Source: Pseudodesulfovibrio sp. (GTDB lineage Bacteria > Desulfobacterota > Desulfovibrionia > Desulfovibrionales > Desulfovibrionaceae). Taken from it: a DNA stretch of 52,078 bases. Shown here one piece after another: positions 4,897 through 42,934 of this stretch. Under the pieces are notes generated by a model. The model had not been told where the DNA came from. It worked only from the letters and a program-made list of their open reading frames with translations, and did no database searches. How positions within the stretch are numbered: position 1 is the first letter of the stretch; every line of letters begins with the position of its first letter. Both the position numbers and the translations under genes were made by a program. The DNA lies in the NCBI RefSeq assembly GCF_028692895.1, contig NZ_JAQUWN010000024.1, positions 1 through 52,078 on the forward strand. Direction: 5' to 3'.

Positions 4897-5022
4897 CAGG
4901 CTGTTCCAAAACGGCGATCTGCTTCGTCGCTGCAAAGGGTTCAAACCCTCGCGTACGGGAAGTACGCTTCGGGCTTGAACCCTTTTTGCTCCTCGCATCT
5001 CACCATTTTGGAACAGCCTGCT
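4895..5022. repeat. Long palindromic intergenic element, copy 1
   Basis: 128-bp element with perfect 17-bp ends (4895-4911 and 5006-5022). An inner stem pairs GCAAAGGGTTCAA with TTGAACCCTTTTTGC, and the tip is GCGTAC-GGGAA-GTACGC. It sits between the convergent cNMP gene and a sensor kinase and includes the last two bases of the cNMP stop codon. A second copy is at 9266-9393. It may act as a transcript-end hairpin for both neighbours. Confidence 0.88.
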
Positions 5023-5141
5023 TCTACGGCGAGGGTTTGGCTTGGACGCGTGGGCGGGCTTGGACGTCGGCTTTGCCTGCGCCCCGCAGGGGTGGGCCTC
5101 GCGGGGCTTTCCCCGCGTTGTTTCGCCGCGTCTTGCCGCGC

Positions 5142-7532: not shown

Positions 7533-8306
7533 TCAGTCGGCCATGCCGCCGCACTCCACCTCGTCGATGAACAGGTCCACCAGGTCCGGGTCCAGTGCGG
7601 TCCCGGCCAGGGCGCCGAGGATGGACAGGGCCTCCTGGGGCGTCTTGCCGCGCTGGTAGGGGCGGTTGGTGGTCATGGCGTCGAAGCAGTCGGCCACGGA
7701 GAGGATGCGCGCGCCCAGCGGAATCTCGTCGCCGCTCAGGCCGCGCGGGTAGCCCCGGCCGTCCATGCGCTCGTGGTGGGCGAAGACGTAGTCCAGGGCC
7801 GGGCCCAGGAAGTCGAGGTTGCGCAGGATGTCGTATCCCCACTGGGGGTGGCTGCGGATCTCCAGCAGCATGTCCTTGTTGAGCCGCGTGTCCTCGTTGG
7901 AGAAGACGTGGTCGGAGAAGCCGATCTTGCCGATGTCGTGCAGGATGCCCGCGATGCGGATGCGCTCCACCTCGTCCGGGGCCAGGCCCAGTCGGAGGGC
8001 CATACGCTCGGCATAGACGCCCACGCGCTCGCCGTGGCCCTCGGTGTAGGCGTCGCGTGCGGCCAGGGCCCCGGCCACGGCCGTGACCGTGTTCAGGGTG
8101 TCGGACTTGATCCGCTCGTTGAGTTGCTCCAGGTGGAATTCCCTGGCCTCGATCCTGACCATCATCAGCCCCACGGCCTCGGCCAGCTCCTGGATTTCCG
8201 GCGGATAGCCGGGGCCGGTCAGCTCCAGGATTTCGTCGGAATACTTCCCCGCCGCGATCTCCTTGATGATGCGGATCAGCTCCACCCGTCCCTCCAGCCA
8301 GGCCAC
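7533..8306 (-). CDS. HD-GYP domain c-di-GMP phosphodiesterase
   Basis: 257 residues from a GTG start with AGGAG nine bases upstream. An N-terminal helical region (1-70) precedes a complete HD-GYP domain: the TEGHGERVGVYAERMA metal-site helix, ILHDIGKIG (HD pair), HHERMDGRGYPRGL (GYP motif) and ARILSVADCFDAMT. This family hydrolyses cyclic di-GMP, lowering the signal that favours surface attachment. It begins 10 bp after the stop of the NmrA-family gene, so the two look co-transcribed, an unusual pairing of a redox enzyme with second-messenger breakdown. It has no receiver or membrane segment. Confidence 0.88.
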   Translation of the reverse strand: MAWLEGRVELIRIIKEIAAGKYSDEILELTGPGYPPEIQELAEAVGLMMVRIEAREFHLEQLNERIKSDTLNTVTAVAGALAARDAYTEGHGERVGVYAERMALRLGLAPDEVERIRIAGILHDIGKIGFSDHVFSNEDTRLNKDMLLEIRSHPQWGYDILRNLDFLGPALDYVFAHHERMDGRGYPRGLSGDEIPLGARILSVADCFDAMTTNRPYQRGKTPQEALSILGALAGTALDPDLVDLFIDEVECGGMAD

Positions 8307-8316
8307 GGGAAGGCTC

Positions 8317-9165
8317 CTATTTCCAGGTTGCGGCGTGCTCGGCCGCGAACTCGGCGAAGGTCCGGGCGGGCGCGCCGGTCAGGTATTCCACGGCCCCGGT
8401 GACGTTGCCCATCATGCCGAGCTTGACCACGCGGGAGAGGCTGACCTCCATGTTGCGCTGCCACTCGGTGTATCCGGCCGCGTCCAGGCCCTCGATGAAC
8501 GGCTCCTCCTCGATGGCCTCGTAGGCCACGGCGCGCCCCAGGGCGTCGGACAGGCGGGCGGCCGCGTCCGCGCCGGTCAGCCCCTCGGGGCCGGTCAGGG
8601 CGTAGAACCGGTTCTCGTGCCCCTCGCTGTCCAGGAGCAGGCGGACCGCGCAGGCGGCCACGTCGCGGGCGTCGAGGTAGCTGACGGGGTGGGACTCCTC
8701 GGGCAGGGGAACCCGGCCGGAGCGAACGGCGTCGGCCAGCAGGCCGGTGAATTTCTGCATGGGGGTGTTGGCCCGCAGCACGGTGAAGGGGATGCCGGAG
8801 TCCTCCACGAACTGCTCGACCATGCCGAACTCGCGGCCCATCCGCCAGTGGGCGTCGGAGGACGCGTCGTAGCGGCTGGCCAGGACGATGTAGGAAACGC
8901 CCGCCTCGCGGGCGGCGGCCACGGCGCGGCTGCCCGCGCGGGCCATGGTCTCGCAAAAGGGCGGGGCCAGGAAGAGGCGGTCGCAGCCCGCCATGGCTGC
9001 GGCCATGGAGGCCTGGTCGTCAAAGTCGAAGGCGCGGACCGCCACGCCCGCCGGGGCGTTGGTTCCGTCGGGCCCGGCCGCCACGGCCGCGCCCTGCTTG
9101 GCGAGGGCGTCGATGACGGCGTCCCGGACCGGACCGGTGAGCCCGGCCACGAATATCATGCTCAT
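8317..9165 (-). CDS. NmrA-family NAD(P)-binding oxidoreductase (QorB-like)
   Basis: 282 residues from the ATG at 9165 (AGGGAGATCC upstream). Atypical short-chain dehydrogenase fold: FVAGLTGPVRDAVIDAL is a degenerate nucleotide loop, followed by CDRLFLAPP, YIVLASRYDAS and the substrate-side FTVLRANTPMQ and VSYLDARDVA motifs. Family members either sense NADP or reduce quinones (E. coli YtfG/QorB). The nearby HxlR regulator echoes the ytfG-ytfH pairing in E. coli, so quinone or electrophile detoxification is a reasonable inference. Co-transcribed with the downstream HD-GYP gene. Confidence 0.78.
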   Translation of the reverse strand: MSMIFVAGLTGPVRDAVIDALAKQGAAVAAGPDGTNAPAGVAVRAFDFDDQASMAAAMAGCDRLFLAPPFCETMARAGSRAVAAAREAGVSYIVLASRYDASSDAHWRMGREFGMVEQFVEDSGIPFTVLRANTPMQKFTGLLADAVRSGRVPLPEESHPVSYLDARDVAACAVRLLLDSEGHENRFYALTGPEGLTGADAAARLSDALGRAVAYEAIEEEPFIEGLDAAGYTEWQRNMEVSLSRVVKLGMMGNVTGAVEYLTGAPARTFAEFAAEHAATWK

Positions 9166-9265
9166 GATGGATCTCCCTGCGTGAAAGCTTGAACGGGGGA
9201 ACGGTACACGAAATGGCGGGAGAAAGGCAAACGGGAGATGGAGGATATCCCGCCCGAGGCGGCCG

Positions 9266-9393
9266 GGCAGACGGTTCAAAAACGGCGATCTGCTGCGTCG
9301 CTGCAAAGAGTTCAAACCCTCGCGTACAGGGAGTACGCTTCGGCCCTGAACTCTTTTTGCTCCTTGCATCTCACCGTTTTTGAACCGTCTGCC
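9266..9393. repeat. Long palindromic intergenic element, copy 2
   Basis: 128-bp element with perfect 20-bp ends (9266-9285 and 9374-9393). The body is nearly identical to copy 1 (shared CGGCGATCTGCT, TTCAAACCCTCGCGTAC, GTACGCTTCGG, TGCATCTCACC-type blocks). The outer arms differ from copy 1 but remain perfectly complementary to each other. It lies between the flavoprotein gene and the NmrA-family gene, both on the minus strand. Confidence 0.88.
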
Positions 9394-9418
9394 TTATCTT
9401 TTTTTGACCAACGGCCTG

Positions 9419-9994
9419 TTAGGCGTGAATCTTTTTCAGGAGCCAGGCCATGTTGTCTCCCAGGACGTCCATGGTCTGCATGGCCTCTTCGTCGGCCAGG
9501 ACCTCGCCTTTTTCGCGGCCCACGCCCAGGTTCCAGTAGCGGGAGCCGGGCACGATCATCTGCTCGATGAAGAAGAAGGCGTTCAGCCCGTCAAAGGCCG
9601 CCTGGGCCCCGCCGCGACGGTTGACCACGATGGCCGCGCCCACCTTGCGGGCGAACATGGAGCCGTTGACCAGCCCGACCATGCCCGCGCGGTCGATGAG
9701 CGCCTTGATCTCGGCGGTGACGTTGGCGAAATAGGTCGGGGAGGCCAGGATGACGGCGTCGGCCTCGTCCATGGCCCTGATGCAGTCGTTGGCGAAGTCG
9801 TTGGTCACGGCGCATCGGCGGTCCTTGTTCTCCGCACACTTGTAGCAGGCCATGCATCCGTGCATCTTCTTGCCCGACAGCTCGATCATCTCGGTTTCGA
9901 TGCCCTCGGCCGTGAGCCGGGCGAAGACGCGCCGGATCATCTCGGCGGTGTTGCCGCCCTTGCGGGCGGAACCGTTGATGGCGACTACTTTCAT
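9419..9994 (-). CDS. Iron-sulfur flavoprotein / NADPH-dependent FMN reductase
   Basis: 191 residues with a flavodoxin-like fold. The N-terminus VVAINGSARKGGNTAEMI is the FMN phosphate loop. CMACYKCAENKDRRC (from about 47) gives the compact C-x2-C-x2-C-x7-C motif typical of Isf-type proteins that hold a 4Fe-4S cluster. ILASPTYFANVTAEIKALIDR is the flavin-contact segment of the family. It would shuttle electrons from NAD(P)H or ferredoxin to small acceptors such as quinones. The start is nine bases after the nitroreductase stop, so the two share an operon; the palindromic element follows its stop. Confidence 0.85.
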   Translation of the reverse strand: MKVVAINGSARKGGNTAEMIRRVFARLTAEGIETEMIELSGKKMHGCMACYKCAENKDRRCAVTNDFANDCIRAMDEADAVILASPTYFANVTAEIKALIDRAGMVGLVNGSMFARKVGAAIVVNRRGGAQAAFDGLNAFFFIEQMIVPGSRYWNLGVGREKGEVLADEEAMQTMDVLGDNMAWLLKKIHA

Positions 9995-10003
9995 GGGATT
10001 CTC

Positions 10004-10513
10004 CTAATAGGTGTTGAAGTGCACGCGGTCCTCGCGGAACCGGCTTTCGGACGCAGGGGCCTGGGCGGGCCAGCCCAGCACCGCGAATCCGAGCGGGATC
10101 ACGGTCTCGGGCAGGCCCAGCAGTTCCCTGAACCCGGCCTCCCGGTCCGCCATGGGGTGGACGCCGGTCCAGACCGCGCCCAGGCCCAGGCCGTGGGCGG
10201 CCAGGAGCAGGTTCTCCATGGCGGCGGAGCAGTCCTGCGCCCAATAGCCGGGGTACTTCTCCAGGCCGAGGTCGCCGCAGACAAGGATGCCGAGCGGGGC
10301 CCGCGCCGCCATTTTCACGTAGGGGTGGATTTCGGACGCGGCGTCGAGGACCTTGCGGTCGTCGACGACCACGAATTGCCAGGGCTGGGCGTTGCCCGCG
10401 CTGGGGGCCATCATGGCCGCCGCAAGCATCTGCCGGACCAGGGCCCTGTCCACGGGCCGGTCTTCGAATTTGCGGATGCTGCGTCTGGTCGTCAGGGCTT
10501 GCATGAGTTCCAT
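10004..10513 (-). CDS. Nitroreductase-family flavoenzyme
   Basis: 169 residues. TTRRSIRKFEDRPVDRALVRQML, APSAGNAQPWQFVVV and GLGAVWTGVHP are the FMN-binding motifs of the minimal nitroreductase fold. The enzyme reduces nitro compounds, quinones or flavins with NAD(P)H as a dimer. I chose the ATG at 10513 because GAGGAGG precedes it and the family starts at about this point; an ATG seven codons upstream is possible but lies before that Shine-Dalgarno. It is divergent from the HxlR regulator and leads the nitroreductase-flavoprotein operon. Confidence 0.85.
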   Translation of the reverse strand: MELMQALTTRRSIRKFEDRPVDRALVRQMLAAAMMAPSAGNAQPWQFVVVDDRKVLDAASEIHPYVKMAARAPLGILVCGDLGLEKYPGYWAQDCSAAMENLLLAAHGLGLGAVWTGVHPMADREAGFRELLGLPETVIPLGFAVLGWPAQAPASESRFREDRVHFNTY

Positions 10514-10583
10514 GGGACCTCCTCGGTCTGCCATTGTTTACGTGCGCCCAGTCTTGTGCTAGAGGTAAAAAAGATCAAGTACG

Positions 10584-10595
10584 CACTTCAAAGTG
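10584..10595. promoter_or_regulatory. Candidate HxlR operator
   Basis: Inverted repeat CACTT-CA-AAGTG in the AT-rich divergent region between the nitroreductase and the HxlR gene. HxlR regulators commonly bind short dyads in such intergenic regions. The site is assigned by position and symmetry only. Confidence 0.4.
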
Positions 10596-10673
10596 GCATA
10601 GTTACCAAAAAGAAACCATAGGCGCGCTCCTTGCCTCCGGCCGGCCGGCCCGCTGGCGCGCCCGGAGAGCGGC

Positions 10674-11051
10674 ATGAGCCATCCCTGCTCCCTCAAGGTC
10701 TGCGGCGACAAGACCTATTACTGCACCGTGGAGCTGACGCTCCAGGTCATCGGCGGCAAGTGGAAGCCGATCATCCTCTACCGGCTGAGCCGGGACGGGG
10801 CCGTGCGCTTCAGCGAGATCAAGCGGTCCATCCCGAACATCACCCAGAAGATGCTCACCCAGCAACTGCGAGAGCTGGAGTCGGACGGCGTGGTGCACCG
10901 CGAGGTCTACCCCCAGGTGCCGCCAAAGGTGGAGTATTCCTTGACGGAAATGGGCCGGAGCATCATGCCGGTCATCGACGCCCTGTGCTGCTGGGGCCGG
11001 GAGTACGAAGCCTGGGCCGAGACCCGGCGGGAGCGCGCCAGGGCCGTCTGA
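10674..11051 (+). CDS. HxlR-family winged-helix regulator
   Basis: 125 residues. The typical HxlR signature is complete: [72 protein letters not shown]. Family members respond to aldehydes, quinones, disulfide stress or hypochlorite through Cys. This one has three early cysteines (C5, C10, C17), C17 lying where redox-sensing members such as HypR carry their reactive Cys. It is divergent from the nitroreductase and probably controls that gene and itself. DNA-binding function is secure; the inducer is not. Confidence 0.88.
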
Positions 11052-28479: not shown

Positions 28480-29196
28480 CTATTCTTCCCCGGCGCTGAT
28501 CTTGTTCCACCACAGCCGGTGGTGGTGCTTGGCGTATCCGTCCGGCACGGAGCCGGTGAACATCGACTTGAAGCCGGGCCGCTCCTCGGGCGAGATGGCG
28601 GCCATGTAGACGTGGACCAGGAGCCCGGCGAAGACCAGGCCCACGGCGATGAAGTGCAGGGTCACGGCCCAGGAGATCCAGCCCGAGGCCTCGGCCCCGA
28701 GGGTGCGGTCGGACAGGTACATGACCACGCCGGTGGCGGCGATGACGATGCCGCCGACCACGCTGGCCTGGGCAAAGGCCTTCTGGCCCATGTTGTAGTA
28801 CCCCTGGTCGGGCAGGGACGGGTCCATGCCGAGGAGCTTCAGGGCCTTGGGCCCGAGGGTCATCAGGACCATCTTCTTGAGCATCCAGGCCATGTCGCGG
28901 CCGGGACTGACCGCGAAGACCTCGGCCAGGAAGAAGCGCGCGCCCTTGAAGTTGACCAGCAGGTAGAGGACGAAGCCCGCGATCCAGGCCAGGCCGATCC
29001 CCTCGTGTACGGCCAGGAGGTTGCCCCCGCCGCCGACCAGGTTGCGCAGGGCCTCGGGATAGCCGGAGCCGAAGGGGTCTATGGCCGGGTTTTGGATCAG
29101 CCCCACGCCGGTCAGGAGCAGGAGCAGCCAGCAGGCCGCGTTGAACCAGTGGATGAAGATGTCGGAGCGGTCGTGCCGCTTGTGGAGCCTAGGCAT
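28480..29196 (-). CDS. Cytochrome b subunit (FdnI/PhsC type)
   Basis: 238 residues, four predicted membrane spans (about 14-34, 60-82, 143-162, 174-199). Haem-ligand candidates are H16, H64, H181 and H195 (IHWFNA, VHEGIG, LHFIAVGLVFAGLLVHVYMA), matching the dihaem gamma subunits of formate dehydrogenase-N and thiosulfate reductase. It passes electrons between menaquinol and the FeS subunit. The start overlaps the FeS gene by eight bases. No NrfD-type anchor is present, which argues against a Psr-type complex with a haem-free anchor. Confidence 0.88.
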   Translation of the reverse strand: MPRLHKRHDRSDIFIHWFNAACWLLLLLTGVGLIQNPAIDPFGSGYPEALRNLVGGGGNLLAVHEGIGLAWIAGFVLYLLVNFKGARFFLAEVFAVSPGRDMAWMLKKMVLMTLGPKALKLLGMDPSLPDQGYYNMGQKAFAQASVVGGIVIAATGVVMYLSDRTLGAEASGWISWAVTLHFIAVGLVFAGLLVHVYMAAISPEERPGFKSMFTGSVPDGYAKHHHRLWWNKISAGEE

Positions 29197-29941
29197 CGGA
29201 GTCCTCCTTGTGGTCGCCTTCGCCGGAGTCGCCCGCGAAGAGCTGTCGGCCGAGCATGGCCAGCACGCCCAGGCCGGAGAGGCCGACCAGGGCCTTGATG
29301 ACCGGGGCGGACCGCTTCATGGCCACCATGGAGGCGGGGACCACGGCCTCGCGGCCCCAGTCGCCGGGGCCGGGATCGCCCAGGTAGTACATGTTGGGCC
29401 TGGTGTCGGTCTTGGCGGCCACGCGGGTCAGGCGGGCCTGGTTCCTGAGGTAGAGCGCGCCCGCGTCGGAGCCCGGGTCATTGATGTCGCCGAAGACGCG
29501 GGCCTTGGTCGGACAGGTGTCCACGCAGGCCGGGGCGAGCCCCGCGGCGCGCCGTTCGGGACAGTAGTTGCACTTGTCCGCCTTGCGGGTCAGCTCATTG
29601 CGGAAGCGCGCGTCGTAGGGACAGGCCGGGATGCAGTTGCCGCAGCCGATGCACAGGGTCTCGTCGATGACGACCTCGCCGGTCGCCGGGTCCTTGTAGG
29701 TCGCCCCGGTGGGGCAGGCCTCGACGCAGGTGGGCTTTTCGCAGTGCATGCACGCGCCGGGCTGGAACCGGGCCTTGGCGCGCGGGGCCGGGCCGGGGGC
29801 CGGAGCCGCGTCGGCGGGCTTGATCCAGTTGCGCCACTGCCCGTCGGGCACCTCGTTGGCCACCTTGCAGGCCAGGACGCACGCCTTGCAGTCGATGCAC
29901 TTGGCGGCATCGATGAGCATTGCCAGTTGCTGCTTCGCCAT
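29189..29941 (-). CDS. Four-cluster FeS subunit with C-terminal membrane anchor
   Basis: 250 residues. Four Cys clusters: CIDCKACVLACK, CMHCEKPTCVEACP, CIGCGNCIPACP, and CNYC...CVDTCP, giving four 4Fe-4S centres as in FdnH, PhsB and DmsB. The C-terminus carries one hydrophobic helix (about 217-236; IKALVGLSGLGVLAMLG) that would anchor it on the periplasmic face, as in FdnH and HybA. Its start shares a base with the molybdoenzyme stop (TAATG), and its end overlaps the cytochrome b start. It relays electrons between cytochrome b and the catalytic subunit. Confidence 0.9.
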   Translation of the reverse strand: MAKQQLAMLIDAAKCIDCKACVLACKVANEVPDGQWRNWIKPADAAPAPGPAPRAKARFQPGACMHCEKPTCVEACPTGATYKDPATGEVVIDETLCIGCGNCIPACPYDARFRNELTRKADKCNYCPERRAAGLAPACVDTCPTKARVFGDINDPGSDAGALYLRNQARLTRVAAKTDTRPNMYYLGDPGPGDWGREAVVPASMVAMKRSAPVIKALVGLSGLGVLAMLGRQLFAGDSGEGDHKEDSDA

Positions 29942-32130
29942 TACGCCACCTTCCTTGTTACGGACACGAAGGTCGTGTGCATGGACGCGTTGCCGGTGAT
30001 CGCGTCGTAGTCGTCTTCCAGGATGTCGTTGATGGACGCGCCGTTGCCGTGGGACAGGTGCTGCATGGTCGAGAGGGTGTTGAAGCCCGAGAGCATGTAT
30101 ACCGTGTCGGACCGGATGCGGTCCGTGACCTCGGCCCTCAGCTCCTGGCTGCCCGCGCCGCTGGCCACCTGGACCAGGTCGCCGTCGGCGATGCCGAGGG
30201 ACCTTGCGGAATCCGGGTTGATCCACAGGGTGTTGGTGGGCACCAGTTGGTGCAGCAGCGGGTTGTTGGCCGTGGAGGTCTGGGTGACCAGGGCGTTGCG
30301 GCCGATGATGAGGCGGAACCGGCTCTTGTCCGGCCGCGTCGGCGCGGTGTACCTGGGCAGCGGATCGAGGCCCATCTGCTCGTAGCGCTGGTTGTAGAGC
30401 TCGATCTTCTGGGACAGGGTCTTGTAGATCTTGCCGTCGTAGATGCCGTAGACCTTGGAGGGGTTGTAGTAGACCCCGTCGCGGTCCATGACCTTGAGGG
30501 CCTCGGGGATGTCGCGGGTCTGCTTTTGCCGGTATTCGTCGATGGTGAAGTCGAAGTATTCGCCGAGCTCCAGCCGGTTCGCCAGCCCCTTCATGATGTC
30601 GAAGCAGGAGCGGGACTCGTAGAGCGGCGCGATGACCGGGTCGCGCTTGACCACGCAGGCGCAGGCCACCGAGCCCTGGAGGCCGGAGCACGGGTCCTCG
30701 CGCTCCAGGTAGGACTGGGAGGGGAGGACCAGGTCCGCGAACCAGGCTGTGTCGGACATGGCGATGTCGATGACGGTCACGAAGTCCATCTTGTGCATCA
30801 TTTCGATGGTCTTCTTGCGGTTGGGGGCCGTGCCCATGGGGTTGGTCTTGTACACGAGCCAGCCCTTGATGGGGTACGGGTCCTCGGCCAGCACGCAGTC
30901 GCGCGTGACCAGGAAGGAGCCCTCGTGCTCGAACATCATCGGCACCTTGCCCGCGTCGATGCGGTCTTCGTGGTTCTCGTCGTACCACGGGGCGTCGAAG
31001 GGCACGCCCTTGAGGCCCACGGCGCGGGCGGCGAGCAGGCCGCCGGGCCGGTCCCAGTTCCCGAGCAGCGCGTTGACGATGGCGAAGGCGCGGCGGATCT
31101 GGGTGGAGTCCTCGTAGTCCGAGCTGCGCCGGCCGGGATAGATCATGGACGCCGGGGCGGCGGCCGCCAGCTCGCGCGCGATGCGGGCGATGTCTCCGGC
31201 CGGGATGCCGCACTCGTCCGCCGCGAACTCGGGGGTGTACGGCTTCACGTGCTCGGCGAGCTGCTCGATGCCGTATGTCTTTTGCTCGATCCACTCGGGG
31301 TCATAGAGCTTTTCCGTGATGATGACGTGGGCCAGGGCGAGCATGAAGGCCATGTCCGTGCCCGGCCGGACCGGGTGCCACTCGTCGGCCAGGGCGGCGG
31401 TCTTGGTGTAGCGCGGGTCGAGGACGACCAGCTTGCAGCCGTTTTCGCGCATGGCGGTCATCAGGTCCATGGAGTCTGGCGTGACCAGGGCCTCGAACCG
31501 GTTGGCCCCGGCCATGACGATGTACTTGGAGTTGAGCACGTCGGCGAAGGGGACCTCGCCGTAGGTGTCGAGAAATGCGCGGTTGTTGGAGACCAGGCAG
31601 AGCGACTCGTGGGAGGTCACGTTGAACGAGCCGTAGACCTCGGCGAACCGGCCCACGAACTGGGAGTGCAGGTCCGTCCCGGCCGAAAAGAGGTGGCCGC
31701 AGGGCAGGTACTTCTCGCGCACTTCCTTCATCTTTTGGGCGGCCATGTCCAGGGCCTCGTCCCAGGGGATGCGCTTCCACTTGCCCTCGCCGCGCCCGCC
31801 CGCCCGGAGCAGGGGGTACTTGAGCCGGTCGGGGTCGTAGACCTGGGCCACGCCCGCGTTGCCGCGCGCGCAGAGCATCCCGCGCGACTTGAGGAACTTG
31901 GGGTTGGGGTCGAGCTTCTTCACCACCCCGTCCTCGACGCGGGCGATGAGGCCGCACTTGTTGAAGCACATGTCGCAGGCCGAAAACTTCGATTCCCACT
32001 GGGGAGCCGGGGCCGCCTGCGCCCTGCGCAGGCCGCCCAGCAGGGCCGCGCCGCCCGCCGCTCCTGCGGCGAACAGCCCGGAGGCCTTGAAGAAATCCCG
32101 GCGGGAAAGGGTGTGTCTGGTGTCGGGCAT
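29941..32130 (-). CDS. Tat-exported molybdopterin oxidoreductase (PhsA/PsrA-like)
   Basis: 729 residues. Twin-arginine signal SRRDFF (R10-R11) and a hydrophobic stretch to about residue 40. An N-terminal 4Fe-4S site at C52, C55, C59 and C87 (CDMCFNKCG, CARG). The probable Mo ligand is C178 in SHESLC. MGD-binding motifs include VVLDPRYTKTA, YKTNPMGTAPN and the C-terminal molydopterin dinucleotide domain (TLWINPDSARSLGIADGDLV). Cys ligation and size fit thiosulfate, polysulfide or tetrathionate reductases; arsenate reductases are a more distant option. CGGAGTAACC precedes the ATG at 32130. The linked rhodaneses favour a sulfur substrate. Substrate remains inferred. Confidence 0.87.
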   Translation of the reverse strand: MPDTRHTLSRRDFFKASGLFAAGAAGGAALLGGLRRAQAAPAPQWESKFSACDMCFNKCGLIARVEDGVVKKLDPNPKFLKSRGMLCARGNAGVAQVYDPDRLKYPLLRAGGRGEGKWKRIPWDEALDMAAQKMKEVREKYLPCGHLFSAGTDLHSQFVGRFAEVYGSFNVTSHESLCLVSNNRAFLDTYGEVPFADVLNSKYIVMAGANRFEALVTPDSMDLMTAMRENGCKLVVLDPRYTKTAALADEWHPVRPGTDMAFMLALAHVIITEKLYDPEWIEQKTYGIEQLAEHVKPYTPEFAADECGIPAGDIARIARELAAAAPASMIYPGRRSSDYEDSTQIRRAFAIVNALLGNWDRPGGLLAARAVGLKGVPFDAPWYDENHEDRIDAGKVPMMFEHEGSFLVTRDCVLAEDPYPIKGWLVYKTNPMGTAPNRKKTIEMMHKMDFVTVIDIAMSDTAWFADLVLPSQSYLEREDPCSGLQGSVACACVVKRDPVIAPLYESRSCFDIMKGLANRLELGEYFDFTIDEYRQKQTRDIPEALKVMDRDGVYYNPSKVYGIYDGKIYKTLSQKIELYNQRYEQMGLDPLPRYTAPTRPDKSRFRLIIGRNALVTQTSTANNPLLHQLVPTNTLWINPDSARSLGIADGDLVQVASGAGSQELRAEVTDRIRSDTVYMLSGFNTLSTMQHLSHGNGASINDILEDDYDAITGNASMHTTFVSVTRKVA

Positions 32131-32141
32131 GGTTACTCCGT

Positions 32142-32201
32142 TTTTCCCTCGCGTTGTCCCTCGCGCCATCCGGCGCGCTATCGGGCGCGTCATCGGGGCA
32201 T
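32142..32201. repeat. Five degenerate 12-bp tandem units in the molybdoenzyme leader
   Basis: Units at 32142-53, 54-65, 66-77, 78-89 and 90-201; minus-strand forms include CGCGCCCGATAG, CGCGCCGGATGG, CGCGAGGGACAA and CGCGAGGGAAAA. They fill the space between the putative operator and the Shine-Dalgarno. Confidence 0.6.
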
Positions 32202-35195: not shown

Positions 35196-37055
35196 CTATT
35201 CGCCCGGCCGGTATTCCGGCACCAGGCGGCGCAGGATGGCGCGGATGGCCTCGCCGTCCCAGGCGTCGGCGGCCCGGGCGAGTTCTGCGATGGCCCGCTC
35301 CAGCTCGGCGGGGTCGGGCGGGGAGTCGCTGCCCAGGACCAGGATCTTGTCGTGCTCGGTGCGCACGATGTCCTCGCCCTCGGTGATGAGCTCCTCGTAG
35401 AGTTTTTCGCCTTCGCGCAGGCCGGTGTAGACGATGGGGACGTCCACGTCCGGCTCCTTGCCGGAGAGGCGGATGAGGTCGCGGGCCATGTCCGCGATCT
35501 TCACGGGCACGCCCATGTCCAGGACGAAGACCTCGCCGCCGGTGCCCTTTTCGCCCATGCTGCCCGCCTGGAGGATGAGCTGGGAGGCCTCGGCGATGGA
35601 CATGAAGTAGCGGGTCACCTCGGGGTGGGTGACGGTGACCGGGCCGCCCGCCTCGATCTGCCGCCGGAAGAGCGGGACCACCGAGCCGCTGGACCCGACC
35701 ACGTTGCCGAAGCGCACGGCCATGAACCGGGTGCCGCGGCCGTTCAGGGACTGCATGAGCAGTTCGGTGACGCGTTTGGACGCGCCCATGACGTTGGTGG
35801 GCCGGACGGCCTTGTCCGTGCTGACCACCACGAACCGCTCCACCCCGGCCTCCACGGCCGTCTCCATGAGGGTGCGCGAGCCAAGGATGTTGTTGCGCAC
35901 GGCCTGCCAGGGGTTGCGCTCCAGCATGGGCACGTGCTTGTAGGCCGCGGCGTGGAAGACCACGGCGGGCCGGTGCTCGTGAAAGACGCGGGCCATGAGG
36001 TCGCGGTCGGCGACGGAGCCGAGCACCGTGGTGTAGCCGGTGAACCCGAGGCCGTGGTGCAGCTCCATCTGGATTTCGTAGAGATTGTATTCGCTCGAAT
36101 CCACCAGGACCACGTGGCCGGGGGCGAAGCGCACGATCTGGCGGCAGAGCTCCGAGCCGATGGACCCGCCGCAGCCGGTGACCAGGACGGTCCGGCCCGA
36201 GAGGTAGCTCTTGATGCGCCCGGCGTCCAGGAGGACCGGGGAGCGGCCGAGCAGGTCGAGGTAGTCGATGTCGCGCAGGGTGGCGATGTCCACCTTGCCG
36301 TCCATGATCTCGGTCATGGCGGGGAGGATTTTGTAGGGGAAGGGGGACGCCTTGCAGGTCTCCACGATGCGGCGCATCTGCCCGGCCGAGGCCTCGGCCA
36401 CGGCGATGAAGACCTCGTCCACGCCCTCGCGCTCGCCCACGGCGGGCAGGTCCTCCACCCGGCCGAGCACGGGGCGGCCGTGGATGGTCCGGCCGCGCTT
36501 GGCCCGGTCGTCGTCCAGGAAGCCAGCGAGGCGGTACTGGGCCGGGTTGGCGGTCAGCTCGCGGCTGATCTTCTCGGCCAGGCTGCCCGCGCCGACCACG
36601 AGCACGGTCTTGCGGTCCGCCAGGGGCGCGAGGTGCGTCTCCGAGCGGGCGAAGAAGGCGCGGATGGAGAGCCTGAGCCCCGAGCACAGGACCAGGGTCA
36701 GCACCCAGTCGAAGACGAAGATGGAGCGCGGGACGCCGAGGAAGGAAAAGCGGAAGAGGACGAAGGAGACGAGGATCAGGCTCTGCAGGGCCGTGACCCG
36801 GAGCAGCTTCCAGTAGTCGTCCAGGCTGGTGTAGCGCCACATGCCCCGGTACAGGCCGAAGGACACGAAGATCACGGACTTGAAGACCAGGACGTACTTG
36901 AGCAGCCCCTTGTACTGGGTGAAGTAGGTGGCCGGGATGTTGAAGTCGAAGCGGAAGGAATAGGCGGCCAGCAGGGCCAGCGCGAAGATCGCCAGGTCCG
37001 CGAGGAACATGACGTAGAAGTTGGTGTTGCGGAAATTGGGCAGGCTCGGCTTCAT
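35196..37055 (-). CDS. Membrane UDP-sugar 4,6-dehydratase (PglF/WbpM/CapD type)
   Basis: 619 residues. Four N-terminal membrane helices (about 14-32, 46-66, 80-100, 108-126), a first Rossmann-like domain (VLVVGAGSLAEKISREL), then the SDR catalytic domain with VLVTGCGGSIGSELCRQI, VVFHAAAYKHVPMLE and STDKAVRPTNVMGASKR. The S-T-D-K in place of the usual catalytic Tyr is the mark of inverting-free 4,6-dehydratases acting on UDP-GlcNAc. It makes the 4-keto-6-deoxy sugar used by the aminotransferase encoded just upstream. ATGA overlap with that gene. Confidence 0.9.
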   Translation of the reverse strand: MKPSLPNFRNTNFYVMFLADLAIFALALLAAYSFRFDFNIPATYFTQYKGLLKYVLVFKSVIFVSFGLYRGMWRYTSLDDYWKLLRVTALQSLILVSFVLFRFSFLGVPRSIFVFDWVLTLVLCSGLRLSIRAFFARSETHLAPLADRKTVLVVGAGSLAEKISRELTANPAQYRLAGFLDDDRAKRGRTIHGRPVLGRVEDLPAVGEREGVDEVFIAVAEASAGQMRRIVETCKASPFPYKILPAMTEIMDGKVDIATLRDIDYLDLLGRSPVLLDAGRIKSYLSGRTVLVTGCGGSIGSELCRQIVRFAPGHVVLVDSSEYNLYEIQMELHHGLGFTGYTTVLGSVADRDLMARVFHEHRPAVVFHAAAYKHVPMLERNPWQAVRNNILGSRTLMETAVEAGVERFVVVSTDKAVRPTNVMGASKRVTELLMQSLNGRGTRFMAVRFGNVVGSSGSVVPLFRRQIEAGGPVTVTHPEVTRYFMSIAEASQLILQAGSMGEKGTGGEVFVLDMGVPVKIADMARDLIRLSGKEPDVDVPIVYTGLREGEKLYEELITEGEDIVRTEHDKILVLGSDSPPDPAELERAIAELARAADAWDGEAIRAILRRLVPEYRPGE

Positions 37056-38176
37056 GCGGCCACGCTCCTGGCCACGGCCGCGATGCGTTCGAGGTCCTCC
37101 CCGGTCAGGGCCGTGCCCGAGGGCAGGCAGATCCCGCGCGCGAAGAGGTCCTCGCCCACCGCGCCGCCGGTGACCGGCACGCCCGCGAACACGGGCTGGA
37201 GGTGCATGGGCTTCCAGACCGGGCGGGACTCGATGTTCTCCGCCTCCAGGGCCAGGCGCAGGTCCTCGGGGGTCGCTCCGAAGGCCGGGTCCAGGAGCAT
37301 GACCGTGAGCCAGCGGTTGGACCGGCCGTAGGCGGCCTCGGGCATGAAGGACACGGGCAGGTCCGCGAGGGCCGCCTCGTACCAGGCCGAAATCTCCCGC
37401 CGCCGGGCCACGAAGCCGTCGAGCATCTCCAATTGGCCCAGGCCGATGGCGGCCGAGACGTTGGACATGCGGTAGTTGTAGCCGAGGGTGGTGTGCTCGT
37501 AGTGGGGGGCGGGGTCGCGCGCCTGCTGGGAGAGCCGCCGGGCCTCCTGGATGAACGCGCCGTCGTCCCCGGCCAGCATGCCGCCGCCGCTGGTGGTGAT
37601 GATCTTGTTGCCGTTGAAGGAATAAACGGCCGCGTCGCCCCCGCGCCCGGCCGGGCGGCCCTTGTAGGTCGCGCCCACGGCCTCGGCCGCGTCGATGACC
37701 AGGGGGATGCCGCGCGGCTCGCACACGCTTCGGATGGCGTCGTAGTCCGAGCACTGGCCGTACAGGTCGGTGGGGATGACGGCGGCCACGCGGCGGCCCG
37801 CCGCCTCCTCGGCGTCGATGGCCTCGGCCAGGAGCCGGGGGTCCATGTTCCAGGAGGCGCGGTCGCTGTCCACGAAGTGGAGGTCCGCGCCCAGGAAGGT
37901 CACGGGCGTGACCGAGCCGATGAAGGTCAGTGTGGAGGCCATGACCACGTCGCCCGGTCCCACGCCGAGCAGCCGGAGCGCCAGGTGCATGGCCGCCGTG
38001 CCGCTGGACACGGCCAGGCAGTGGGCGAACCCGGTCAGCTCGCGGAAGGCCTGCTCGAAGGCCGCGAGCTGCGGCCCGGCGGGCGCGATGAAGTTGGCGG
38101 CGAAGGCCGCGTGGACGTATTCGAGCTCCCGGCCCCCCATGTGGGGAGGGGAAAGAAAGATGCGATCCCTGGTCAC
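37052..38176 (-). CDS. DegT/DnrJ/EryC1 sugar aminotransferase (PglE-like)
   Basis: 374 residues from a GTG start with AGGAG eight bases upstream. PLP fold-type I: SSGTAAMHLALRLLGVGPGD, DAAEAVGATYKG, the PLP lysine in SFNGNKIITTSGGG, and GYNYRMSNVSAAIGL. It would aminate the 4-keto sugar nucleotide from the dehydratase using glutamate. The GTG directly abuts the acetyltransferase stop and its stop overlaps the dehydratase start, so all three are one tightly coupled operon. Confidence 0.9.
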   Translation of the reverse strand: MTRDRIFLSPPHMGGRELEYVHAAFAANFIAPAGPQLAAFEQAFRELTGFAHCLAVSSGTAAMHLALRLLGVGPGDVVMASTLTFIGSVTPVTFLGADLHFVDSDRASWNMDPRLLAEAIDAEEAAGRRVAAVIPTDLYGQCSDYDAIRSVCEPRGIPLVIDAAEAVGATYKGRPAGRGGDAAVYSFNGNKIITTSGGGMLAGDDGAFIQEARRLSQQARDPAPHYEHTTLGYNYRMSNVSAAIGLGQLEMLDGFVARRREISAWYEAALADLPVSFMPEAAYGRSNRWLTVMLLDPAFGATPEDLRLALEAENIESRPVWKPMHLQPVFAGVPVTGGAVGEDLFARGICLPSGTALTGEDLERIAAVARSVAA

Positions 38177-38954: not shown

Positions 38955-40880
38955 ATGAAACGCGAATGGATCACAGACGCCCTGCGCATCCGGCGGGTGG
39001 AGGAAACCTTCCTCCGCCTCTTCGCCGAGGGCAGGCTCAACGGGACCGTGCACACCTGCATCGGGCAGGAGTTCTCGGCCCTGGCCTTTGCGGGCGGCCT
39101 CAGGCCGGGCGACGCCGTGGTCTCCAACCACCGCTGCCACGGCCACTACCTGGCCTTCACCGGCGACCTCGCCGGGCTTGTGGCCGAGCTGACGGGCAAG
39201 GCGGCGGGCGTCTGCGGCGGGATCGGCTCCAGCCAGCACCTTTGCCGCGACGGCTTTTTCTCCAACGGCATCCAGGGCGGCACCGCGCCCGTGGCCGCCG
39301 GGCTGGCCATGGCCCGCAAGCTGCGGGGCGGCGGCGACATCGCCGTGGTCTTCCTGGGCGACGGCACCCTGGGCGAGGGCGTGGTCTACGAGGTCCTGAA
39401 CATGGCCTCCAAGTGGGAGCTGCCCCTGCTCCTGGTCTGCGAGCGCAACCGCTACGCCCAGTCCACGCCCACGGAACGGACCATCGCCGGGGACATCCTC
39501 GCCCGGGCCGAGGCCTTCGCCATCCCGACTTTCCACTCCGCCACGGCCGACCCGGACGCGCTCATGGCCGACGCGGCCCGCTCCATCCGGCAGGTGCGCG
39601 AGACCGGCCGCCCGGCCTTCCACCTGGTGGAGACCAACCGGCTGGCCCCGCACTCCAAGGGCGACGACGACCGCGATCCGGCCGAGCTGGCCGCCTGCCG
39701 GGCCCAGGACCCGCTCTGCCGCCTGGAAGCGGCCGAGCCCGACACCTTTTCCGCCCTGGCCGAGGCGGCGGACCGCGAGATCCGCGCCGTGCTCGACGGC
39801 CTGGAGGGCGCGCCCGCCCTGGCCCCGGCCGAGTACGCCCGGGTGGCCGACCCGGACCCGGCCCCGCGCTGGGTCCCGGCCGAGCCGTCGGAGCGGCGGC
39901 AGGCCGACCTGCTCCACGCCTGCCTGGCCGAGCGGATGGCCGCAAATCCCGAGACCCTGCTCCTGGGCGAGGACATCGCCGCGCCCTACGGCGGGGCCTT
40001 CAAGATCACCCGCGACCTCTCGGACCGCTTTCCCGGCCGGGTCGTCTCCACTCCCATCAGCGAAGCGGGCTTCACCGGCATCGGTTGCGGCCTGGCCCTC
40101 GGCGGGTTCCGGCCGGTGGTGGAGATCATGTTCGGCGACTTCGTGCTCCTGGCCCTGGACCAGTTGGTCAACCACGCCTCCAAATTCCATCACATGTACA
40201 ATGGCCGGGCGACCTGCCCGCTCATTCTGCGCACGCCCATGGGCGGCGGCCGGGGATACGGCCCCACCCACTCCCAGTCCCTGGAGAAATTTCTGGCGGG
40301 CATCGACAACGTCGTCCTGTGCGCCCTGAACTCCCTGGTGGACCCGGCCCTTATCTATAAAAAAGTGTTCGAGCGCGAACACCCCACCGTGGTCGTCGAG
40401 CACAAGCTGGACTACGGGCGGCGCATCGCGGCCCGGACCGCGCCCGGCTACGTCGCCGAGCGCACCGCCGGGGGCTGGCCCTGGGCGCGGGTCCGGCCCC
40501 GGTCCTCGCGGCCGGACGTGACCCTGGTTACCCATGGCGGCATGGCCGACGCGGCCGTGGCCGCCCTGGCCCCCCTGTTCCGGGACCACGGCGTCAAGGC
40601 CGAGCTGCTGGTCCCCAGCCGCCTCTGCCCCCTGGACGCCCGGCCCATCCTCGATTCCACGGCCGTGACCGGCCGCCTGGTGACCATCGAGGAGGGGTCC
40701 GGCTTCGCGGGCATCGGCGCGGAGGTGGCGGCCGTGGTGGCCGAGCGCTCGGCCCGTCCGGTGCGCGTCCGGCGCATCGCGGCCGAGCCGCTGCCCATCC
40801 CGTCCGTGCGTGAACTGGAGGACCGGGTCCTGCCGACCACCCGGTCCATCATCCGAACCGTGAGCGAGTTCCTGTCATGA
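38955..40880 (+). CDS. Fused alpha-beta E1 of a 2-oxoacid dehydrogenase
   Basis: 641 residues. The alpha half (1-~290) has RRVEETFL, NHRCHGHYLAFTGD and the thiamine-diphosphate motif GDGTLGEG...N (136-138 onward, ERNRYAQST). The beta half (from ~315) has LLLGEDIAAPYGGAFKIT, STPISEAGFTGIGCGLALGG, DFVLLALDQLVNHASKFHHMYNG and the C-terminal VTHGGMADAAVAAL domain. It decarboxylates a 2-oxoacid and transfers the acyl group to a lipoyl lysine. Its stop overlaps the next start by four bases, and that gene supplies the lipoyl domain. No strong Shine-Dalgarno precedes the ATG. No E3 gene is in the window. Substrate could be pyruvate or another 2-oxoacid. Confidence 0.87.
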   Translation: MKREWITDALRIRRVEETFLRLFAEGRLNGTVHTCIGQEFSALAFAGGLRPGDAVVSNHRCHGHYLAFTGDLAGLVAELTGKAAGVCGGIGSSQHLCRDGFFSNGIQGGTAPVAAGLAMARKLRGGGDIAVVFLGDGTLGEGVVYEVLNMASKWELPLLLVCERNRYAQSTPTERTIAGDILARAEAFAIPTFHSATADPDALMADAARSIRQVRETGRPAFHLVETNRLAPHSKGDDDRDPAELAACRAQDPLCRLEAAEPDTFSALAEAADREIRAVLDGLEGAPALAPAEYARVADPDPAPRWVPAEPSERRQADLLHACLAERMAANPETLLLGEDIAAPYGGAFKITRDLSDRFPGRVVSTPISEAGFTGIGCGLALGGFRPVVEIMFGDFVLLALDQLVNHASKFHHMYNGRATCPLILRTPMGGGRGYGPTHSQSLEKFLAGIDNVVLCALNSLVDPALIYKKVFEREHPTVVVEHKLDYGRRIAARTAPGYVAERTAGGWPWARVRPRSSRPDVTLVTHGGMADAAVAALAPLFRDHGVKAELLVPSRLCPLDARPILDSTAVTGRLVTIEEGSGFAGIGAEVAAVVAERSARPVRVRRIAAEPLPIPSVRELEDRVLPTTRSIIRTVSEFLS

Positions 40881-41938
40881 ACAGCCTGATCGAGATCTGC
40901 ATTCCCAAGGACACGGTCAACGACGACGAGGTCCTGATCGCCGACCTGCTTTTTGCCGACGGCGACGCCGTGGCCGAGGGCGAGGCCATCCTGGTCTACG
41001 AGACATCCAAGGCCACGGTGGAAGTGGCGGCCCCGGCCGACGGGCGCGTGGCCTACCGCTGCGCGCCGGGCGACTACGTCCCGGTGGGCGGCGTGGCGGC
41101 GGTCATCGCGGACGGACCGGCCGAGGCGGCGCCCGCGCCCGGACCGGACCTCGCCGCGCCGGGCGTCGCCGATCCCTCGGAGCCGGGCCTGCCGGTCTTC
41201 TCCGAAGCGGCCGAGCGCTACCTGCGCGCAAAGGACATCGACCCCGCCCTGTTCGCCGGGCGAGACATGGTGGGGCTCGCCGACGTCCTGGCCCTGGAGG
41301 CCGGGGAGGACCCGGACGGCCGCATCCCGCTGGTCATCCTGGGCGGCGGCGGACACGGCCTGGTGGTGGGCGACCTGGTGGCGGGCAACCCGTCCTTCCG
41401 GCTCCTGGGCTACCTGGACGACAACAAGCCGCGCGGGGCCACGGTGGACGGCCGCCCCGTGCTGGGCAGGATTTCCGACCTGGACCGGCTCTGCCGGGAG
41501 CACCCCCTGGCCGTGTGCAACGCCGTGGGCTTCGTCAGCCCGGACCCGGCCCTGCGCGTCCGGCTCTTCGACCGGGCCGCCGAGGCCGGGGCCCTGCTGC
41601 CGCCCTTTGTCCATCCCTCGGCCACGGTGGACCCGCGCGCCGTGCTCGGCCGGGGCGTGCAGGTCCACGCCGGGGCCGTGGTCGGCCCGGAGGCCGTGCT
41701 GGAGGACGGGGCCATGATAAACACCAAGGCCGTGATCTCCCACCACTGCCGGGTGGGCCGCCACACCCACGTGGCCCCCGGCGCGGTGCTGGCGGGCGCG
41801 GTCAAGGTGGGCGAGGGGTGCCTGATCGGCATGGGCGTCACCGCCTATCTCGGCATCGCCATCGGCGCGCGTTGCGTCATCGAAAACGGCGCGGCCCTGT
41901 TCCGGTCCGTGCCCGAGGGAACGCGCGTCGCCCGCTGA
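40877..41938 (+). CDS. Lipoyl domain - subunit-binding domain - PglD/NeuD acyltransferase fusion
   Basis: 353 residues. 1-78: lipoyl domain, lysine K45 in ETSKATVEVAAPADG (biotin domains have AMKM instead). 80-104: Ala/Pro linker. 105-140: E1/E3-binding-domain-like segment FSEAAERYLRAKDIDPALFAG. 150-353: sugar acyltransferase of the PglD/NeuD type with VILGGGGHGLVVGDL and the beta-helix motif INTKAVISHHCRVGRHTHVAPGAVLAG; H289 is at the catalytic position. The usual E2 catalytic domain (HxxxDG) is absent. So the acyl group on lipoate is probably handed to a sugar amine rather than to CoA. ATGA-coupled to the E1 gene. I do not know a described equivalent. Confidence 0.87.
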   Translation: MNSLIEICIPKDTVNDDEVLIADLLFADGDAVAEGEAILVYETSKATVEVAAPADGRVAYRCAPGDYVPVGGVAAVIADGPAEAAPAPGPDLAAPGVADPSEPGLPVFSEAAERYLRAKDIDPALFAGRDMVGLADVLALEAGEDPDGRIPLVILGGGGHGLVVGDLVAGNPSFRLLGYLDDNKPRGATVDGRPVLGRISDLDRLCREHPLAVCNAVGFVSPDPALRVRLFDRAAEAGALLPPFVHPSATVDPRAVLGRGVQVHAGAVVGPEAVLEDGAMINTKAVISHHCRVGRHTHVAPGAVLAGAVKVGEGCLIGMGVTAYLGIAIGARCVIENGAALFRSVPEGTRVAR

Positions 41939-42007: not shown

Positions 42008-42934
42008 ATGACCATGACAGCGATACTTTTCCCGGGACAGGGGTCCCAGGAGCAGGGCATGGGCCGGGACGCGGCCGAGAGCCGCGCCGAGGCCCTGGAA
42101 CTGTGGAAGCTGGCCGAGACCGAATCCGGCCTGCCCCTGCGCGAAATCTACTGGGACGGCGAGGCGGGCGACATGGCCGACACCCGCGCCCTCCAGCCCG
42201 CCCTGACCGTGACCAACCTGACCCTGTGGCTGGCGGCGAAGGACAAACTCTCCCCCTCGGCCACGGCCGGGCATTCCCTGGGCGAGTTCGCCTCCCTGGC
42301 GGCCGCCGGGGTCCTCTCGCCCGAGGACGCGGTGCGCGCCGTGGTCCTGCGCGGCCGCCTCATGGCCGAGGCGGGCGGCGAGGGGCACGGCATGGCCGCA
42401 GTGGTCAAGCTGCCCCAGGCCGCCGTGGAGTCCATCGTGGCCGACGCGGCCGCGGCCACCGGCAGGGAGCTGCGCATCGCCAACTACAACTCCCCGGCCC
42501 AGTTCGTCATCAGCGGCGAAAAGGAGGCCCTGGACCACGCGTCCGAGGCCGTCAAGGCGGCCAAGGGCCGGGCCATCGCCCTGGCCGTGTCCGGCGCGTT
42601 CCACAGCCCGCTCATCCAGGAGGCGGCCGACGAGTTCGCCGCGTTCCTGGGCGCCCTGCGCTGGAACGCCCCCGCCTTTCCCGTGTATCACAACGCCACG
42701 GCCCTGCCCGAGCCGGACCCGGCGAGCATCCTGGGCGTCATGCAGCGCCAGATGACCTCGTCCGTGCTCTGGATACAGACCCTCCAGGCCCTGTACGGGG
42801 CCGGGGTGCGCCGCTTCGTCGAGGTTGGGCCCAAGGGCGTGCTGGCCAAGCTCCTCTCCCCGAACCTCAAGGACTCGGGCGAAGACTGGACCGGCCAGGG
42901 CGCGGGCTCCCTGGAACAGATCGAAGCCCTGTAG
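42008..42934 (+). CDS. fabD: Malonyl-CoA:ACP transacylase
   Basis: 308 residues. ILFPGQGSQEQGMG, catalytic Ser in GHSLGEFASL, QPALTVTNLTLW, and the C-terminal AFHSPLIQEAADEF and EVGPKGVLAKLL are diagnostic. It loads malonate on acyl carrier protein for fatty-acid synthesis. AAGGAG is seven bases before the ATG at 42008. It starts 69 bp after the lipoyl-acyltransferase gene on the same strand and 12 bp before aroE, so it may share a transcript with either. Confidence 0.92.
   Translation: MTMTAILFPGQGSQEQGMGRDAAESRAEALELWKLAETESGLPLREIYWDGEAGDMADTRALQPALTVTNLTLWLAAKDKLSPSATAGHSLGEFASLAAAGVLSPEDAVRAVVLRGRLMAEAGGEGHGMAAVVKLPQAAVESIVADAAAATGRELRIANYNSPAQFVISGEKEALDHASEAVKAAKGRAIALAVSGAFHSPLIQEAADEFAAFLGALRWNAPAFPVYHNATALPEPDPASILGVMQRQMTSSVLWIQTLQALYGAGVRRFVEVGPKGVLAKLLSPNLKDSGEDWTGQGAGSLEQIEAL

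Follow-up and report, generated by a model that had tools for sequence, protein, structure and literature searches.

A RenH-like E1 coupled to a lipoyl-NeuD fusion protein in Pseudodesulfovibrio: a candidate route for sugar acylation without coenzyme A

The window analyzed here is a 52,078-nucleotide stretch of Pseudodesulfovibrio sp. DNA (RefSeq assembly GCF_028692895.1, contig NZ_JAQUWN010000024.1, here contig 49 of the 3.69 Mb genome G000). It encodes an E1 enzyme (P0001) and, coupled to it, a partner (P0002) in which a lipoyl domain and a domain resembling the peripheral subunit-binding domain (PSBD) precede a NeuD/PglD-type hexapeptide sugar N-acyltransferase. An ordinary NeuD (P0003) is encoded nearby. 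On comparative evidence, the two coupled genes probably form a minimal acyl-transfer machine, with a glycolyl or other acyl group passing from lipoate to an amino sugar. The pair has both E1 α and β domains and a lipoyl domain with a modifiable lysine, as in a 2-oxoacid dehydrogenase complex, but it has no E2 catalytic domain with the DHRxxDG motif.

The open reading frames (ORFs), Pfam and NCBIfam bear out the arrangement given in a preliminary description of this DNA, namely an E1 gene followed by a lipoyl-PglD fusion gene, with the stop codon of the first overlapping the start codon of the second in an ATGA. P0002 matches Biotin_lipoyl over residues 18-76 (5e-08), PglD_N over residues 152-232 (4.1e-09) and Hexapep (3.4e-16), and its score for NeuD_NnaD (TIGR03570, 170.8 bits) exceeds the family cut-off of 160.8. 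No match to the E2 catalytic domain PF00198 is found in P0002 at E values up to 1, in keeping with the original reading that a hexapeptide sugar acyltransferase has taken its place. The motif ETSKA begins at residue 42 and SHHC at residue 288, so the residue numbers K45 and H289 assigned at the outset are right. K45 is invariant in the four aligned lipoyl-NeuD proteins, the lysine is kept in all five that were found, and the residue is predicted to be lipoylated. A biotin domain was considered and rejected: ETSKA is unlike the EAMKM-type biotinyl motif, and among protein families this part is matched best by E2 lipoyl domains. H289 aligns with the catalytic-type histidine conserved in relatives; the adjacent H290 was discarded as a special residue, HH being seen in ordinary NeuDs too. 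By analogy, LDDN is likely the Asp pair that binds uridine diphosphate (UDP) in relatives, and the functional reading of this pair and of the histidine follows excerpts of PMC8040287. Residues 149-352 match the acetyltransferase domain of Neisseria gonorrhoeae PglB (6.7e-29) and PerB (1.8e-23). The same two proteins are the best Foldseek matches of P0002, through the NeuD part and with low TM-scores.

The N-terminal part of P0002 points to the origin of the fusion. A profile of P0002 and its homolog from locus L007 aligns throughout residues 6-146 with four E2s that belong to the same E1 type (G209, RenI, Streptomyces and L148; hhalign E 7.5e-25); against eight ordinary E2s, the lipoyl domain alone aligns (E 2e-14). 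The subunit-binding-like domain noted earlier is real but derived. This part alone aligns with the same-type E2s at E 8.2e-09, is unconvincing against the eight ordinary E2s (E 0.14, or 0.0008 with the same-type E2s added to the profile), and gives no match to Pfam E3_binding. P0002 and the same-type E2s have in common ETSK (ESSK in L007) and an N-x-D stretch close to the N-terminus; their lipoyl domains show the same gap of one residue, and their PSBD loops are shortened by three. RenI, for example, has the lipoyl sequence FETSK and the same loop deletion, but ends in an E2 catalytic domain (PF00198, 9.5e-37) with DHRVLTG in place of DHRxxDG. The same-type E2s as a group read DHRV(A/L/I/T)(N/T/E)G at this position; the Asp is missing in all four distinct sequences and kept in nine of nine ordinary E2s, one of which has NHMTTDG. 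P0002 thus looks like an E2 of this type whose catalytic half was swapped for a sugar acyltransferase.

P0001 contains E1_dh (residues 11-258, 1.1e-39), Transket_pyr (319-487) and Transketolase_C (515-632), so that E1 α and β domains are both present. Over its full length, P0001 is 42% identical to RenH from the renieramycin cluster (MK748464.1), and it also matches E1s encoded in split form on Streptomyces plasmids. In a 44-row E1 tree, P0001, the L007 E1, RenH, the G209 E1 and two near-identical Streptomyces rows form a six-row clade (support 100/100, internal branch 1.44), within which P0001 and L007 group with RenH at 96/96. A 48-row tree, which omits two long-branch rows of the first (Parabact_ab and Rhodov_ab), enlarges the clade to 11 rows (100/100), and the E1 of G154 joins it at 100/99. 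Thirty-one positions are invariant in all six subfamily E1s, each of them recurring in no more than 15% of 38 other E1s. Six motifs (SNHR.HGH, G[GS]SQH, GDGT.G.G, HS[KR].DD, PYGGAFK and GPTHSQ) occur in 10 of 11 lipoyl-fusion-type E1s, as against none or one of the 38 others, with one near-identical Streptomyces row (L112) omitted from the counts; the single lipoyl-fusion-type E1 without them is that of G154 (locus L162). By these relationships, the window E1 is of the RenH/SclQ-like, glycolyl-unit type and not of the ordinary pyruvate or acetoin kind, a clade membership that rests on RenH and the Streptomyces rows, QncN and SclQ2/3 not being among the tree rows. The transketolase of the genome itself is matched better by the subfamily profile (E 1.3e-06, prob 90.6) than by the ordinary E1 profile (E 5.5e-04, prob 29.9), and it has GPTH at the position aligned with the subfamily E1s. 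This better match and the transketolase-like GPTH are hints that the donor may be a ketose phosphate.

The C-terminus of P0002 bears on the use of coenzyme A (CoA). A GVPA[RK]-type segment, the PA segment, closes 37 of 38 ordinary NeuD rows (36 distinct). Ten of the 41 NeuD loci were left out of the alignment for want of an ORF matching over 150 residues, and all 10 end with this segment. It is missing in four of the five lipoyl-NeuDs, P0002 included, and these four also have in common a Ser preceding the catalytic His and an Asn at 337. In the characterized relative Pcryo_0637, according to excerpts of PMC8040287, a conserved proline near the C-terminus turns from trans to cis on CoA binding and the next coil folds back. 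Judged by position, the PA segment may be read as the site of this CoA-responsive proline. The evidence against CoA use is thus good for P0002 and its near kin, but not general.

The P0001/P0002 arrangement is not a chance one, because a similar pair with the same neighbors exists in another species (L007, Pseudodesulfovibrio MAG6, on the same contig as G022; E1 67% and lipoyl-NeuD 60% identical). L007 is the sole full-length relative from a contig scan that used short exact patterns of one protein. The E1 of this locus (3946-5865) meets an in-frame TAG a little short of the length that the window E1 would predict, which could reflect a genuine truncation or a fault in the assembly. Of 36 genus genomes, 2 have a full-length lipoyl-NeuD match; the figures are 2 of 348 for the order (E 1e-30) and 1 of 395 for the phylum (1e-28), the own genome counted each time; a four-row lipoyl-NeuD profile finds 2 of the 395 (the own genome and G154) at 1e-40. 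The three genome draws overlap, all within the phylum of the window, and the counts are lower bounds, as the order search at E 1e-30 overlooked G718, which an E1 scan recovered.

That scan of the 348 order genomes with the window E1 (E 1e-60) yields 44 matches. Seven of these genomes have this E1 type (about 42% identity or more) and define the subfamily; the other 37, with identities up to 37%, were not placed in the tree. A lipoyl fusion accompanies the E1 in all seven, directly adjoining in six and one gene off in G683. The fusion ends in NeuD in G000, G022, G683 (L114) and G718 (L149), in another hexapeptide domain in G520 (L150) and G016 (L151), and in an E2 domain in G614 (L148), so that acyltransferases of the left-handed β-helix (LbH) fold end six of the seven. 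A fifth lipoyl-NeuD, found through the lipoyl-NeuD profile and not through its E1, belongs to another family of the phylum (L162, G154) and also adjoins E1 genes; its locus (7828-10906) runs from a Gfo/Idh oxidoreductase through the lipoyl-PSBD-NeuD gene, E1 α and E1 β to an aminotransferase. Such fusions thus recur with E1 genes, as four NeuD-type and two other hexapeptide proteins in the order and one NeuD-type protein elsewhere. In all five lipoyl-NeuDs, the sugar half matches NeuD_NnaD best among the NCBIfam families, and P0002, L149 and L162 score above its cut-off.

The surroundings of these fusions vary. L114 lies in a cluster with a glycosyltransferase, a dehydratase, an aminotransferase and an ordinary NeuD. 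L149, L150 and L151 adjoin NeuB-like and PseF-like genes, with NeuB above its family cut-off in L149 alone, and by content appear to be nonulosonic-acid clusters. The fusions of L150 (10298-11797) and L151 (10816-12318, from the genus of the window) join a lipoyl domain, in about 500 residues, to a hexapeptide acyltransferase whose nearest kin are WcaF/WbbJ-like acetyltransferases. In L148 (4229-7352), the E1 is 52% identical to the window pair, the lipoyl protein keeps an E2 domain (DHRVTEG), and the cluster contains an aminotransferase and a Gfo/Idh oxidoreductase. An E1 scan of the phylum (1e-55) matches 60 of 395 genomes, with more than 40% identity in G000, G209, G154 (β part) and G091 (45%, β part). 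The G091 match (G091:C1:470826-471788) is to E1 β only, in an 829-residue open frame from another family of the phylum, and could represent either an additional member or a different type.

The lipoyl-NeuD label requires four changes on the E1 tree and two on the NeuD tree, where long branches leave the placement of L149 and L162 unsure. A single origin of the pairs is not shown, though the NeuD tree would still allow one; as the two trees disagree in places, some reshuffling of E1s and fusions seems to have taken place. Matches to the lipoyl-NeuD with 80% coverage are found in none of 48 matched plasmid records and none of 4 matched phage records, and a scan of viral contigs with the window E1 returns no relative.

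The pair is a two-gene insertion beside a UDP-4-amino-sugar pathway (Table 1). In the three genus genomes without the pair that were examined (L116, L117 and L118), the NeuD and fabD matches start 231-242 bp from each other. The window and L007 have the genes for E1 and lipoyl-NeuD in this interval. P0003, an aminotransferase and a dehydratase lie back to back with the pair on the opposite strand; their families correspond to three steps by which a UDP-4-amino sugar is made and then acylated. P0002 ends 69 bp before fabD, which adjoins NeuD also in pair-free genomes. The NeuD domain of P0002 is not a copy of P0003, an origin we considered and rejected: P0003 clusters with the NeuDs of the genus, and the fused domain with L007 and L114 at 99/96. 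By reading, P0003 is without the uridine-binding Asp-Asp pair of relatives and the fused NeuD has LDDN; the two may use different nucleotide sugars. Repeat and composition scans of the pair show nothing notable. Elsewhere in the window (29189-32193, minus strand), ORF reading without a family search suggests a molybdopterin oxidoreductase whose leader is twin-arginine-like, and after it a 4Fe-4S protein.

Table 1. Features of the E1/lipoyl-NeuD locus and its flanks in the window (aa, amino acids)
Feature	Position	Strand	Details
Fused E1 α-β, P0001	38955-40880	+	641 aa; thiamine diphosphate-dependent type; Pfam, tree, motifs SNHRCHGH (aa 57), GSSQH (91), GDGTLGEG (135), HSKGDD (233), PYGGAFK (344), GPTHSQ (436)
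P0002, lipoyl - PSBD-like - NeuD/PglD hexapeptide sugar N-acyltransferase	40877-41938	+	353 aa; Pfam, NCBIfam, homologs L007, L114, L149, L162
P0002 lipoyl domain, ~aa 5-79	40889-41113	+	predicted lipoyl-lysine K45, codon 41009-41011, in ETSKA
P0002 PSBD-like domain, ~aa 106-142	41192-41302	+	3-residue loop deletion of RenI-type E2s; alignment, hhalign
P0002 NeuD/PglD domain, aa 150-353	41324-41935	+	LDDN from aa 180; H289 codon 41741-41743; C-terminal GVPA[KR]-type segment missing
Ordinary NeuD, P0003	38177-38857	-	ORF as listed, true start may be further in; TIGR03570 212.5 bits; GVPAR kept
DegT-family sugar aminotransferase, LegC-like	37052-38176	-	332.5 bits against a cut-off of 420
Long PglF/FlaA1-type NDP-sugar 4,6-dehydratase	35196-37055	-	Polysacc_synt_2 3.9e-115; start inferred from ORF
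fabD, right flank of the insertion	42008-42934	+	name from ORF reading

In the mechanism we propose, P0001 would accept a C2 ketol unit on its thiamine diphosphate, with a ketose phosphate as the most likely donor (as proposed for related glycolyl-unit E1s), and reductively acylate the lipoyl group of K45 to glycolyl-dihydrolipoyl. The arm would swing into the NeuD domain, where, with H289 as the base, the 4-amino group of a nucleoside diphosphate (NDP) sugar would attack the thioester to give an N-glycolyl amino sugar. The adjacent dehydratase and aminotransferase would supply the NDP-4-amino sugar, a general E3 encoded elsewhere in the genome would reoxidize the dihydrolipoate, and neither CoA nor an acyl carrier protein (ACP) would be used. 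The sequences show the gene order, the domains, the phylogeny, the recurrence of E1 with lipoyl-acyltransferase fusions and the lost C-terminal segment; from these we infer the lipoylation of K45, the direct transfer, the acyl group, the acceptor and the E3 step. Transfer from lipoate straight to the sugar is likely, and an acceptor drawn from the adjacent pathway is the somewhat favored choice. The route from E1 through lipoate to a sugar without E2 catalysis, put forward in the preliminary description, gains support of a comparative kind from the recurrent fusions and from the PA segment lost in four of five. The identity of the acyl group is the weakest step. The relationship of P0001 to glycolyl-unit E1s makes glycolyl the best guess, albeit a tentative one, and the sequences make it more likely than a standard 2-oxoacid product.

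The genome encodes a lipoate ligase (TIGR00545, 403 bits, cut-off 280) and the lipoyl synthase LipA (TIGR00510, 376 bits, cut-off 310). Contig 55 (L078) carries separate E1 α and β genes with their own E2, and a sigma-54 regulator and a lipoate ligase lie close by. The window E1 shares 33% identity with these E1 proteins, and by gene order the set looks like an acetoin-type operon; its AcoX-like gene has no NCBIfam match at 1e-20. The contig 55 E2 reads NHMTTDG in place of DHRxxDG. Whether an E2 elsewhere accounts for the window E1, a question raised at the outset, is not cleanly decided by this locus: an E2 exists, but beside its own E1 genes.

Several known systems share parts of this design. 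Excerpts of PMC6335953 tie the RenH/SclQ-like E1 type to glycolyl units from ketose phosphates, and those of PMC7570522 make a similar statement for DinU and DinS, homologs of NapB/NapD. In QncN/QncL/QncM of quinocarcin, NapB/NapD of naphthyridinomycin and SclQ1-4 of scleric acid, a ketose is described, in the same excerpts, as the source of glycolyl-lipoyl that is passed on to an ACP (PMC6335953, PMC7570522). The window pair resembles them in its apparent E1 type, its lipoyl partner and its presumed non-CoA acceptor, although the QncN, QncL, NapB, NapD and SclQ sequences were not compared; it differs in having a NeuD domain and no ACP near, where they have an E2-type acyltransferase domain and an ACP acceptor. 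The Streptomyces locus L103 (ACP, E1 α, E1 β, E2, beside nonribosomal peptide synthetase (NRPS) and polyketide synthase genes) matches the order of the glycolyl genes of scleric acid. The pepteridine system of Photorhabdus, as excerpted in PMC5384830, likewise pairs an E1 with an E2-like protein with extra domains (Plu2796), with transfer proposed from a carrier domain to an amine and with a borrowed E3; unlike P0002, Plu2796 is described there with a T and a condensation domain for the proposed transfer and no LbH sugar acyltransferase. The claim that no pathway of such design is described therefore stands in part. Passage of a lipoyl-bound acyl group to carrier proteins instead of CoA is described (excerpts of PMC5384830 and PMC6335953), while the literature searched, which covers few subscription journals, yielded no description of a fused LbH domain that delivers such a group to a sugar. 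A paper on "Flashy flagella" (PMC4875605) was rejected as a precedent, as "lipoylate" in its excerpts refers to fatty-acid genes and not to lipoate. The sugar N-acetyltransferases PglD, NeuD, PerB and VioB share with P0002 the catalytic-type His; they are CoA enzymes without a lipoyl domain, and the C-terminal PA segment is missing in P0002. LpxA and LpxD are LbH acyltransferases that take the acyl group from a protein-borne arm (ACP) in trans; the carrier in P0002 is a lipoyl domain in cis.

A number of observations weigh against the proposed mechanism. L162 retains a C-terminal NPAK, so the CoA segment has not been lost in every case; the two lipoyl fusions with the other hexapeptide type also retain GVPAT. 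The sugar halves of L007 (152.9 bits) and L114 (143.3 bits) fall below the NeuD cut-off, L114 has no recognizable PSBD, and L149 lacks H298. The L162 E1 is without the subfamily motifs, and the L148 E1, which the tree places closest to the window pair, goes with a partner of the E2-catalytic type. The best E3 candidate, on contig 21 and unlinked to the pair, scores 382.2 bits against a TIGR01350 cut-off of 408.8. AlphaFold gives residues 1-146 of P0002 a pLDDT below 50, which leaves no usable model of this part. Finally, with QncN, QncL, NapB and NapD uncompared, the glycolyl assignment rests on RenH, the Streptomyces cluster and the statements of other papers.

The acyl donor is where an alternative is strongest. 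An ordinary 2-oxoacid (pyruvate, 2-oxobutyrate or a branched-chain one) or acetoin might be used, the sugar then receiving an acetyl, propionyl or branched acyl group from lipoate. The fold family is that of pyruvate dehydrogenase-type E1s, the motif-free L162 E1 would be compatible with such a substrate, and the pepteridine E1/E2-like pair is proposed in excerpts of PMC5384830 to use α-keto acids. The window E1, however, stands apart from the ordinary 2-oxoacid E1s compared, by the long internal branch, its grouping with RenH and its transketolase-like GPTH. Because it groups with glycolyl-unit E1s, which are said to use ketose phosphates, the 2-oxoacid substrate named in the preliminary description is doubtful. 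An acetyl group, moreover, would hardly need a lipoyl machine, because P0003 next door is an ordinary NeuD. We regard this alternative as unlikely.

Less probable still, the NeuD domain might continue to take acyl-CoA, with the E1-loaded arm giving its acyl group to CoA through another E2, or being regulatory or vestigial. Characterized relatives do use acetyl-CoA (excerpts of PMC8040287), a separate E2 is available on contig 55, and L162 keeps its PA segment. Set against this, the segment is lost in the other four lipoyl-NeuDs with the lipoyl lysine kept in all five, the E1 genes adjoin or lie one gene off in every case, and a second LbH type recurs in such fusions. The acyl-lipoyl group could also pass to an ACP or another small acceptor as in SclQ-type pathways, leaving NeuD as a docking module, an idea that finds some encouragement in the ACP of near E1 kin in an NRPS cluster and in fabD downstream. 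The ORF lists contain no carrier protein between or beside the pair, although no search with an ACP model was made; fabD neighbors pair-free genomes' NeuD as well, and H289 and LDDN are kept. This last reading is very improbable.

The known role of lipoate is to carry acyl groups to CoA or, for a small number of natural products, to carrier proteins, and the hydroxylation of N-acetyl groups is the best-known source of N-glycolyl sugars (Neu5Gc, N-glycolylmuramate). More speculatively, and with rather less than even confidence, the window pair may belong to a bacterial family of machines that acylate glycans without CoA or ACP, in which transketolase-like E1s load glycolyl from ketose phosphates onto lipoyl-LbH acyltransferases of at least two kinds and the E2 domain has been replaced. 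The two kinds, with the same reservation, could be a NeuD type beside bacillosamine-like pathways and another hexapeptide type in nonulosonic-acid clusters. In that case, lipoate would donate acyl groups directly to sugars, a new use of this cofactor, and N-glycolyl sugars would owe their origin to transfer instead of N-acetyl hydroxylation. This would explain how acyl groups without a common CoA ester, such as glycolyl, can be installed, and it would give a modular rule readable from genomes: the E1 picks the acyl group, and the fused domain picks the sugar.

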